A stretch of DNA of 64,000 nt from Oscillospiraceae bacterium (GTDB lineage: Bacteria > Bacillota > Clostridia > UBA1381): positions 1 through 64,000 of the forward strand of contig JAFLUB010000009.1 in assembly GCA_022509025.1 (NCBI GenBank). The letters are read 5' to 3'. Positions 20,646 through 49,172 of this stretch are shown one piece after another (positions within the stretch are counted from its first letter, which is position 1; every line of letters begins with the position of its first letter). Under the pieces are notes generated by a model. That model saw nothing but the letters and a program-made list of their open reading frames with translations, did no database searches and was not told the origin of the DNA. The position numbers and the translations under genes were made by a program.

Positions 20646-20702
20646 AAAATTTATTAGTAATATTTAACTTAATAACCGGTTGAAAAAAATGACGTATAGT
20701 GA

Positions 20703-21036
20703 TATAATAACCTCACAGCGTTACCAAAAGCAAAGCTTTTGACGCTTGAGAGAACATTGAATCATAATGCTGCGCACACGTTGCGTGCTTGCAGTTATGA
20801 TTAAATAACCTCACAGCGTTACCAAAAGCAAAGCTTTTGACGCTTGAGAGAACATTGAATCATAATGCTGCGCACACGTTGCGTGCTTGCAGTTATGATT
20901 AAATAACCTCACAGCGTTACCAAAAGCAAAGCTTTTGACGCTTGAGAGAACATTGAATCATACTTTGCACACCACAATGCGCCTTCAGCGCAAGCGGTGT
21001 CGAACGCTTTCGCGTTCTGCAAATATATGATATAAT
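20703..21036 (+). repeat. Tandem array of three two-hairpin structured repeats (98-bp unit)
   Basis: Unit boundaries (ATAACC followed by TCACAGCG) recur at 20707, 20805 and 20903, a period of exactly 98 bp. Each of the first two units has hairpin 1 (AGCGT, tacc, AAAAGC, aaa, GCTTTT, g, ACGCT) and hairpin 2 (AATCATAA to TTATGATT with CTGC/GCAG and GCACAC/GCGTGC inside). The third unit keeps hairpin 1 and the outer stem of hairpin 2 (ATCATA 20957-20962 with TATGAT 21026-21031), but its interior is replaced by two new hairpins, giving a three-way junction. It fills the 500-base gap upstream of the ClC gene. The last boundary carries TATAAT (21031-21036), which may be that gene's -10 box. Confidence 0.85.
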
Positions 21037-21077: not shown

Positions 21078-22343
21078 ATGATTAAAGAAATTATTATTCA
21101 AAAATTAAAATCAGCGTTTAATTATTTGACCGTGTTCTTAAAATGGGGATTTATCGCAGTGATAATAGGCGGAGTAGGCGGCGTTGTGGGCGCGCTTTTC
21201 CATGCGAGTGTATTGCATGCTAATGAGCTTTTTTCAAAATACGATAAGCTTATTCTTCTCTTGCCGTTTGGCGGTCTTTTGATTGTCGCTATATATAAGA
21301 AGTGCAAAATGCTCGGCAATAAGGGGACGGACAGTATACTTGCTTCAATAAGAAGCGATGAAGGTGTTCCGTTTTGTCTTGCTCCTCTTATATTTATAAG
21401 TACGGTAATAACTCATCTTTTAGGAGGAAGCGCGGGAAGAGAGGGCGCTGCTTTGCAGCTTGGCGGAAGCATAGGCAGCAGTATAGGTAAATTATTCCGG
21501 CTTGACTCGAAAGATATGCACATGGTTATAATGTGCGGAATGAGCGCGGTATTTTCGGCGCTGTTCGGCACGCCGATAACAGCTGCGTTTTTTGCTCTGG
21601 GTGTAACAAGCGTCGGAATAATGTACTATTCAGGACTTGTCCCATGTCTTATGTCGTCACTTACAGCATATATAATAACCACAATGATAGGTATTAAACC
21701 GACCCATTTTATTATACTTGGTATACCGTCTGTTTCGGCAATGAATATATTGAAGACTATACTTATAGCTGCGCTGTGCGCGGAGCTGAGTATTATTTTC
21801 TGCACTGTAATGCACTACACTGCCCGGTATTTAAAGATATGGTTTAAAAATCCATATTTACGTATTTTTATCGGCGGAATTATCATTATTGCCCTTACTT
21901 ATCTATTGGGAACAAGGGATTATAACGGTTCGGGAATGAATATTATAGAAAGAGCAGTGACATTGGGACGAGCAAACGGTTGGGACTGGGTGCTGAAAAT
22001 AGTGTTCACCGCCGTTACGATAGGAGCCGGGTATAAGGGCGGAGAAATTGTGCCGACATTCTTTATCGGCGCGACCTTCGGCTGCTTTATAGCCGGACTA
22101 ATCGGCATTTCTCCGGGCTTCGGCGCGGCACTGGGTATGATTTCGATGTTCTGTGGTGTACTTAATTGTCCGGTGGCTTCAATAATACTGAGCATTGAAA
22201 TATTCGGCGCCCAAGGGTTTATTCTTTTCGCCGTGGCTACGGGTGTAAGCTATATGCTTTCCGGCTATTACGGACTGTACGGAAGTCAAAAGATAGTATA
22301 TTCAAAATTAAGAGATGAATATATAAATGCAGACACCAAATAA
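21078..22343 (+). CDS. ClC-family chloride channel or H+/anion antiporter
   Basis: The 421-residue membrane protein has the ClC fold. Visible signatures are LLGGSAGREGAALQLGGSIGS, holding the gating Glu in GREG, and GGEIVPTFFIGATFG, which corresponds to the GxFxP anion-binding loop. There are about 10-12 hydrophobic segments. No CBS domains follow, so this is the short bacterial type. Transport mode (channel or proton-coupled) and ion preference cannot be settled; the Ala-Ala after GREG differs from the usual Pro. The start follows AAAAAGGAGCGG. It lies directly downstream of the structured repeat array, which may form its 5' leader. Confidence 0.88.
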   Translation: MIKEIIIQKLKSAFNYLTVFLKWGFIAVIIGGVGGVVGALFHASVLHANELFSKYDKLILLLPFGGLLIVAIYKKCKMLGNKGTDSILASIRSDEGVPFCLAPLIFISTVITHLLGGSAGREGAALQLGGSIGSSIGKLFRLDSKDMHMVIMCGMSAVFSALFGTPITAAFFALGVTSVGIMYYSGLVPCLMSSLTAYIITTMIGIKPTHFIILGIPSVSAMNILKTILIAALCAELSIIFCTVMHYTARYLKIWFKNPYLRIFIGGIIIIALTYLLGTRDYNGSGMNIIERAVTLGRANGWDWVLKIVFTAVTIGAGYKGGEIVPTFFIGATFGCFIAGLIGISPGFGAALGMISMFCGVLNCPVASIILSIEIFGAQGFILFAVATGVSYMLSGYYGLYGSQKIVYSKLRDEYINADTK

Positions 22344-42409: not shown

Positions 42410-42443
42410 GATAATATCCCTAAAAAGAGGAATATAGATATTA

Positions 42444-42565
42444 GTCTTCTTCCATCCGGACTTTACCGTCGGTTTCGGATTTGCACCGAATCGGCCTTCA
42501 TGGCTCGCGGACTTATGGCAAACGCCAATCACCGCCGGTTATGAATCTCACATACCCCGAAGATA
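42444..42565 (-). promoter_or_regulatory. FMN riboswitch (RFN element)
   Basis: On the minus strand the conserved RFN blocks appear in order: ATCTTCGGGGTATGTGA, TAACCGGCGGTGATTGG, AGTCCGCGAGCC, GATTCGGTGCAAATCCG, ACCGACGGTAAAGTCCGGAT and GGAAGAAGA. The outer ATCTTC/GAAGA stem closes it. FMN binding is known to switch off riboflavin genes through this element. It governs ribD-ribE-ribBA-ribH and, by position, ymdB. Confidence 0.96.
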
Positions 42566-42580
42566 TTTTCTTTATATATA

Positions 42581-48116: not shown

Positions 48117-48968
48117 TTATTTCTCCTTTGATATATTATTTTCGCTTCTTAGCGTCACAACCGTCAGTTCGGGACGGTTGAAAAGTCTCGGTATAAGCAT
48201 CGGATTACCGATACCGCGGCTGACAATCATTTCAGTGTGCGGTGATTTATAGTGTCCTCCGACGTATTTAGGGAAGAACACCGATTTTCCGAGCCAGCTT
48301 GAACGCGGTGAAACCAAGCCCTTATTACTTTTAGGAAACCGTACCTGACCGCCGTGCATATGACCTGAGAGAATAAGGTCAAAGCCGTTATGGTTTACGC
48401 ATTCAAACAAGTTCGCGCGGTGGAACAGAAGTATGTCATAACCGTCATAATTACTTATTTTTGACAAAAATGACTGAATATTATCCGCTGCCTTAGAGCT
48501 ATTTAATGTAAAAGGGTCGTCAATACCGGACAGAGATATTTCACTGTCTCCTTTTTTTAGGAGGACGCGCTCATTGTGGAGCGTTCTGACTCCGGCGCAT
48601 TCGGTTTCCTTTTCAAATTTCTCATAATCGCCGCGCCAGAGGTCATGGTTACCTGTCACGGCATACACAGGAGCAATATCCGAGAGATGCTCGCATAGTC
48701 TGACGGCGGGCAAGAAGCTGCCTTTATCGTCAGCCAAATCGCCGGTTGAAACTATAATATCCGGTTCTTCGTTTCGTATCTCGCTTATAAGTCCCGGAAC
48801 GCTGTCGCAATGATAATCGGATATGTGCGCTATTTTAAAACCGTTGAATGATAATGGTATTTTTTTCGATGATATATTATAATGCGTGACCTCAAGTCTG
48901 TTGTCAAGCCCCTTTACTATGCATAACGCTCCGCCCGTAAATGCGGCGGCTTTTATTATTTTTTTCAC
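48117..48968 (-). CDS. Membrane-associated metallophosphoesterase (YkuE/YaeI-like)
   Basis: The 283-residue protein starts with a hydrophobic N-terminal segment (KAAAFTGGALCIVKGL) followed by the calcineurin-like phosphoesterase motifs: IAHISDYHCDS (Asp-x-His), VSTGDLADD, VTGNHDLWRGDYEKF (Gly-Asn-His-Asp) and ILSGHMHGGQVRFP. This pattern matches the YkuE/YaeI group, phosphodiesterases or phosphatases acting at the membrane, including UDP-diacylglucosamine hydrolase-like enzymes. The substrate is not established here. It is the first gene of the minus-strand operon, with a structured repeat in its upstream region. Confidence 0.85.
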   Translation of the reverse strand: MKKIIKAAAFTGGALCIVKGLDNRLEVTHYNISSKKIPLSFNGFKIAHISDYHCDSVPGLISEIRNEEPDIIVSTGDLADDKGSFLPAVRLCEHLSDIAPVYAVTGNHDLWRGDYEKFEKETECAGVRTLHNERVLLKKGDSEISLSGIDDPFTLNSSKAADNIQSFLSKISNYDGYDILLFHRANLFECVNHNGFDLILSGHMHGGQVRFPKSNKGLVSPRSSWLGKSVFFPKYVGGHYKSPHTEMIVSRGIGNPMLIPRLFNRPELTVVTLRSENNISKEK

Positions 48969-49032
48969 GTCAAGATTCCTTTCTGTCGTAATTATAGCGG
49001 TGTAAATTTTAGCGCTTATTTTTCGCGCTTAA

Positions 49033-49142
49033 GGTTATTATATCATAACTGCAAGCACGCAACGTGTGCGCAGCGTTGTGATACAATGTTCTCCAGAGTG
49101 TCCAAATCTATGATTTGGGTAACACTCTGAGGTTATTATACC
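49033..49142 (-). repeat. Solitary inverted copy of the 98-bp two-hairpin repeat
   Basis: Read on the minus strand, this segment aligns with the units at 20703-20900: TATAATAACC boundary, hairpin 1 (AGAGTGT, tacc, CAAATC, ata, GATTTG, g, ACACTCT), GAGAACATTG, then hairpin 2 (TATCACAACGCTGCGCACACG onward to GTTATGATA). Boundary copies GGTTATTATA at 49033 and 49131 are again 98 bp apart. Hairpin 1 differs from the array copies at paired positions that change together, keeping the stem. It lies in the divergent gap between the phosphoesterase and Dabb genes. Confidence 0.85.
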
Positions 49143-49172
49143 ACTAAATTTTAATAAAAACCACTATTTTCA

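Follow-up and report, generated by a model that had tools for sequence, protein, structure and literature searches.

A folded intergenic repeat behind -10 promoter boxes of gut Clostridia: a candidate non-autonomous mobile DNA element

The repeat and its surroundings

The window, a 64,000-nucleotide stretch of a contig from an Oscillospiraceae bacterium, carries a short, folded, intergenic repeat at two places. The single copy occupies positions 49037–49140 of the minus strand. It is an intact unit that includes both TATAAT boxes, and scores 120 bits against the covariance model. On the opposite strand, an array at 20703–21036 comprises three head-to-tail units. Both the copy and the array lie directly upstream of a gene that points the same way: a calcineurin-like metallophosphoesterase gene for the single copy (48117–48968, minus strand; PF00149, 1e-15) and a voltage-gated chloride channel (ClC) gene for the array (21078–22343, plus strand; PF00654, 3.6e-59).

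Read on the minus strand from 49140 to 49037, the window copy has the order TATAAT-AACC-hairpin B-GAGAAC-ATTGTATCA-hairpin A-TGATATAAT, with all parts on that strand. The first TATAAT belongs to the native extended -10 box TGGTATAAT (49135–49143), which is the target site and part of the promoter of the metallophosphoesterase gene; relatives free of the element have this box too. The left hairpin, hairpin B (49094–49129), follows, with stems that pair AGAGTGT with ACACTCT and CAAATC with GATTTG. Next to it is an internal, guide-like stretch, ATTGTATCA (49079–49087), which is complementary to TGNTATAAT. The right hairpin, hairpin A (49037–49087), is of the short type and its outer stem is formed by the guide-like stretch and the element-borne extended -10 box TGATATAAT (49037–49045), which makes up the right end. 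Just after the copy's own TATAAT there is a degenerate, unit-like stretch, AACCTTAAGCGCGAAAAATAAGCGCT...CCGCTATAAT (48992–49036, minus strand), perhaps an older, decayed copy. Elsewhere, the window contains an FMN riboswitch (42440–42568, minus strand; RF00050, 102 bits).

The array is headed by a native promoter (20680–20708, plus strand), which by direct reading consists of TTGAAA, 17 nt, and a TATAAT preceded by TGA. Units 1 and 2 (20703–20806 and 20801–20904, plus strand) have a short hairpin A. That of unit 3 (20899–21036, plus strand) is longer, and the TGATATAAT end of this unit is 42 nt before the ClC gene.

An earlier, sequence-only reading of this DNA had singled out the window copy as a distant relative of the array units, with compensatory base changes. 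Its account of the letters is accurate: the stems of the array are AGCGT/ACGCT and AAAAGC/GCTTTT, the TACC linker is common to both, three paired positions differ on both sides (C-G/T-A, A-T/C-G and G-C/T-A) and the ends are 98 bp apart, as GGTTATTATA starts at 49033 and 49131. The span that it gave, 49033–49142, locates the copy correctly but is 2–4 bases wider than the unit with both boxes. At a further position (G vs C), the difference between the single copy and the array alters how the base of the stem pairs without a pair swap. Taken alone, one pair of copies with three double changes would not suffice for a claim of covariation, and that reading contained neither the -10 boxes at both ends, nor the complementary internal stretch, nor the targeting of promoters.

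Structure of the unit and covariation

The consensus of the unit is (TATAAT)AACCTCA, hairpin B, ATTGxAyCA and a hairpin A ending in TGNTATAAT. The unit is about 98 bp in size, or about 115–135 bp when hairpin A is longer. Folded as DNA, the window copy has an energy of -20.5 kcal/mol (z -5.1), which is equalled by none of 200 shuffles.

The fold was tested on 28 diverse copies, aligned by sequence only. Here, 91% of cells are paired compared to 78.7% in shuffled alignments, double changes occupy 105 cells versus 35 and the covariation score is 0.315 versus 0.123, with 20 of the 33 pairs showing double changes. When pairing partners are slid by one to three columns, pairing falls to 32–45% and the covariation score to 0.085 or less. 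As the tested structure was derived in part from this same alignment, an independent check was done on hairpin B, using 57 ungapped sequences drawn from many genomes. In this set, a ranking of all column pairs by mutual information has stem pairs in its top eight places, and the stem pairs occur as up to four Watson-Crick types each. Covariation therefore holds well past the two original copies, and the proposal that the fold is kept rather than the sequence is borne out. Stem-breaking substitutions as frequent as stem-keeping ones, which would have refuted it, are found neither in the 28 copies nor in the 57 hairpin B sequences. The fold is strongly supported and both hairpins covary.

Wobble pairs were examined for a strand asymmetry that would point to RNA or single-strand use, and the 57 hairpin B sequences gave no such signal. 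There is no excess of G.T over A.C in hairpin B (18 vs 31), which gives no indication that the sense strand is used in single-stranded form. At its foot, hairpin B has CTC/GAG pairs, one of which covaries from C-G to U-A in seven copies. Inferred from the usual -10 spacing, transcription from the left box is expected to start no earlier than the A of AACCTCA. With this start, covarying basal pairs of hairpin B are upstream of it and the left box cannot transcribe the whole fold. The CTC/GAG pairs would then be partly in untranscribed DNA, which favors a role at the level of DNA, or read-through from an upstream unit.

Distribution and copy number

The genome to which the window belongs has 44 BLAST matches (best non-self E 2e-41) and about 43 matches to the covariance model. 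Using the same model, 25 of the 70 genomes of the family have matches, with 0 to 43 copies in each (0 to 40 in the rest of the family), and 22 of 95 genomes in an order-wide sample pass 1e-5. Most other Clostridia tested have 12–80 copies; several isolates are at 28–80, with 71 in F. jeddahensis, 65 in C. minihomine, 80 in A. senegalensis and 60 in Clostridium sp. D33t1. One genome, G018, has near-identical copies at unlinked sites. A DNA pattern search found at least 116 contigs, nearly all from Clostridia and including many named Oscillospirales isolates; two of its matches, one in Bacteroidales (L233, inside an ORF) and one in Elusimicrobia (L196), were set aside.

The element has no match in INPHARED phages, PLSDB plasmids or IMG/VR, and Rfam covariance models do not match it at either gathering or relaxed thresholds. 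A literature search, which did not cover subscription papers, found no description of mini-elements targeted to promoter boxes and, among the papers listed, no use of the consensus words in a bacterial context. The element is common and widespread in gut Clostridia and apparently undescribed.

Filled and empty insertion sites

Filled and empty alleles are available for three loci: the promoter of the window copy, rlmN-PP2C and parA. At each of these, the empty allele of relatives is a single native promoter -10 box, and in filled alleles the element is found immediately 3' of this box and brings a second -10 box of its own. The window site is empty in G013, G014, G002, G009 and G001, where ...TAGTGGTATAAT is followed by an unrelated leader. 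The filled site reads ...TTAGTGGTATAAT/AACCTCAG...TGATATAAT/, with slashes at the junctions.

At rlmN-PP2C, the promoter is a conserved one that lies at the end of rlmN. Most relatives have it in simple form, in G003 it is filled, and G024 has the element at the same box. An array is present at this PP2C gene in G000 as well, on a contig that stops before the native box. Across this region (L007 and L127 in G000, L045 and L114 in G003, L053 in G024), the element is seen in two genera with differing types of hairpin A, which suggests that the same promoter has been used repeatedly.

At parA, the empty allele of G008 is TATGATATAAT/GTTCTTATAAC and the filled allele of G010 is TATGGTATAAT/ATTTTTAGGG...TATGATATAAT/GTTCTTATAAC. 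This site is also filled in G003, and variants or remnants are present in G015, G001 and G000. The triplets that precede TATAAT in the left and right boxes are TGC and ACA at parA in G003, TGG and TGA at parA in G010, and TGC and TGA at PP2C in G003. The left box is native and the right box is that of the element. As the native left box can differ from the right one, there is no target duplication.

The target box and the guide-like stretch

In 132 separate first copies, the logo of the left flank is TATGNTATAAT, with the TG present at 104 sites. A -35-like hexamer, defined as at least four of the six bases of TTGACA at the right spacing, is found upstream of 52% of first copies compared to 14% of shuffled sequences and 1.5% of internal array copies; in a second set, the values are 51, 14 and 13%, respectively. 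Of the genes on the 3' side, 85 share the strand of the element and 17 are on the opposite strand. On the 5' side, 67 genes have the same direction and 50 the opposite. The downstream genes are unrelated housekeeping genes with no function in common. Within the window, TGNTATAAT occurs inside genes six times without copies, a small count that could reflect selection. At least one copy (L020, 1499–1603), before a gene for LL-DAP aminotransferase, is antisense to both flanking genes; thus, the target box need not be the promoter of a flanking gene.

The stretch ATTGxAyCA is complementary to TGNTATAAT; its fourth base keeps a G.T pair and x has no pairing preference. Base y pairs with the N of the element's own right box at 126 of 132 sites (59 expected). 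Within genomes, y also pairs with the N of the native left box at 71 of 119 sites, against 55.8 ± 3.8 (p 2e-4), and this pairing is modest in the subset with a clear native -35 (34 of 61 vs 26.5, p 0.008). The left and right N agree at 56 of the 119 sites. At the 63 sites where they differ, y tracks the box of the element in 55 cases and the native box in 16, so y may be conserved only with its own stem. Judged from sequence alone, target choice by ATTGxAyCA is suggested, not shown.

Proposed mechanism and relation to known systems

The sequence-only reading had left the choice between a functional RNA and a structured mobile element. The latter is favored by the patchy copy number, the filled and empty sites and the unrelated downstream genes. 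We think it probable, with room for doubt, that the unit is a mobile DNA element, structure-based and non-autonomous, whose insertion at promoters has a geometry like that of IS200/IS605 ends. Counting against this view are the missing enzyme, the modest association of guide and target where a native -35 is clear, the tendency of y to follow the right box, the placement of the guide relative to hairpin B, the lack of a G.T excess and the antisense copy. The data establish how the unit folds, where exactly it inserts, the consensus of its target, the patchy spread within lineages and the complementarity between ATTGxAyCA and the box. In the model proposed, each unit would insert directly on the 3' side of a promoter's extended -10 box, TATGNTATAAT. 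The native box would stay at the left of the unit and a second box would be carried at its right end, so that a -10 box still faces the gene. Tandem arrays could result from repeated insertion at the box or from unequal recombination. Movement as a folded single strand is inferred, as is a contribution of ATTGxAyCA to target choice in the manner of IS608 guide sequences. Cutting would be done by a trans-acting enzyme encoded elsewhere, which is also an inference, as no enzyme was found.

IS608 inserts precisely 3' of a target that is retained, and a guide located 5' of a hairpin pairs with the cleavage site (PMC5934647). The element resembles the ends of IS200/IS605 members (IS608, ISDra2) and the MITEs derived from them in inserting 3' of a short target that is kept on the left, without target duplication, and in having subterminal hairpins and, at the right end only, a succession of guide, hairpin and cleavage-site-like box in which guide and box could pair (PMC5934647); cleavage of the element itself is inferred. 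Unlike these systems, it is about 100 bp with no gene, its target is an extended -10 promoter box and genomes with 60–80 copies have no Y1 transposase. In contrast to IS608, hairpin B directly follows the target and the guide is on the 3' side of this hairpin, between the two.

The element shares with REP/REPIN sequences the short, non-coding, extragenic hairpins, the high copy number, the arrays and the lack of autonomy. It differs from them in that several high-copy genomes have no RAYT, which is a Y1 protein, arrays are head-to-tail in one orientation instead of inverted pairs, the boundaries are -10 boxes and the consensus has no GTAG/CGTC tag at the foot of the hairpin. Because isolates with 60–80 copies are without Y1, the element cannot be filed as either IS200/IS605 or REPIN.

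BOX, RUP, Correia and similar sequences are modular, structured, intergenic repeats near promoters, and some of them create promoters. The element is like them in its modular structure and its position. It differs in sharing no sequence with them in Rfam scans, in inserting exactly after a -10 box that is native and in carrying a complementary stretch inside. In putative mobile promoters, promoter sequence spreads between genes. Here, the promoter piece is instead a -10 box that ends a folded element, and the point at which this element inserts is defined. The term putative mobile promoters occurs in PMC8049555.

Search for the mobilizing enzyme

Y1 transposase (PF01797) has no match in four isolates with 60–80 copies each (G087, G088, G089 and G090) or in G018. 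It is present in only 34 of the 70 family genomes and its presence does not track copy number. A scan of the family's Y1 loci for element ends found none that carries them. Y1 was rejected as the mobilizer since it is missing from G018 and the four high-copy isolates and does not follow copy number. DEDD (IS110) transposase has no match in G088, G089, G090, G086 and G043, and reverse transcriptase none in G000, G087, G088, G086, G043 and G092. Neither the bridge-RNA (IS110) nor the retroelement (RT) route was retained, as these enzymes are not shared among the host genomes searched. No transposase recurs among the genes beside copies, where only housekeeping families recur. The isolate assemblies are drafts, and it is possible that the enzyme has been lost or is unrecognized.

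Alternative explanations

A bolder idea, which we hold only tentatively, is that this is a new kind of element. Here, a gene-less unit of ~100 bp would find active promoters by means of the complementarity between a stretch inside it and the extended -10 box, and would be moved by host machinery other than Y1, IS110 or RT, perhaps using the single strand of the promoter bubble.

It is unlikely, but still to be reckoned with, that the unit is a promoter or leader module selected for regulation and spread by ordinary recombination, either as a structured 5' leader RNA or as a supercoiling-sensitive promoter. The complementary stretch would then hide one or other -10 box in a hairpin. Such a role fits the usual site, which is a promoter upstream of a same-direction gene, the -10 box inside the outer stem of hairpin A and the strong conservation of structure. 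However, the genes downstream are unrelated, presence is patchy among close relatives and empty sites retain an intact, simple promoter. Furthermore, with the start inferred from -10 spacing, the left box cannot transcribe the whole fold.

Integron-like, site-specific recombination is somewhat more doubtful. In this scheme, a tyrosine recombinase of the host, working on sites that are either folded or duplex, would join a circular unit to a promoter box via the shared core TATGNTATAAT. Among such recombinases, XerC/D is universal. No attC core is seen and, on reading the sequence, no GTTRRRY is present at the boundary; units are without genes and N is often not the same in the left and right boxes. 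These findings are set against the tandem arrangement of short cassettes, each of which has a single site, the absence of a dedicated transposase nearby and the agreement of left and right N at 56 of 119 sites, as crossover homology would give.

Movement of a MITE by a DDE transposase, with a target duplication containing TATAAT, is very improbable. Although similar boxes flank each unit and the size is MITE-like, single insertions can have a native left box unlike the right one (parA, PP2C), the right box covaries as part of the element, orientation is fixed and the ends, as read from the window copy, are not mutual inverted repeats. Chance similarity or assembly artefact can be dismissed almost entirely, for even though many arrays end MAG contigs, the family is also found in isolate genomes with large contigs and has conserved synteny in several genera. 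The position of these arrays is such that the element explains the assembly breaks.

Should the unit be a mobile element that inserts at promoters, as we favor, it would be a common one that rewrites promoters across gut Clostridia, at up to about 80 copies per genome, and leaves a -10 box facing the gene. It would also provide an example from nature of an element that selects its target by a complementary sequence within itself, the target here being the very core of the promoter. This raises the question of which enzyme moves an element whose hosts share no tested class of transposase.

Variants of the unit

Upstream regions of parA (L288 in G015, L292 in G001, L293 in G000 and L280 in G010) contain variants of hairpin B in which the basal stem abuts the -10 box and covaries, as GTTCTTA/TAACAGAAC, GTTATTA/TTAATAAC and ATTTTTA/TTAGAAAAAC. 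The sequence GTTCTTAT follows the parA box in the empty alleles of G008 and G005 as well. In the G015 ortholog of the window site (L415), the same promoter has two divergent repeats, TTAAAATAACCTCG...GGCGGTATAATAA, which may be distantly related to the element. In several arrays (L002, L003, L006, L008 and L012), hairpin B is identical or nearly so, and hairpin A switches back and forth between a short and a long type, as also found at other loci. This alternation beside a constant hairpin B points to module exchange or local homogenization.
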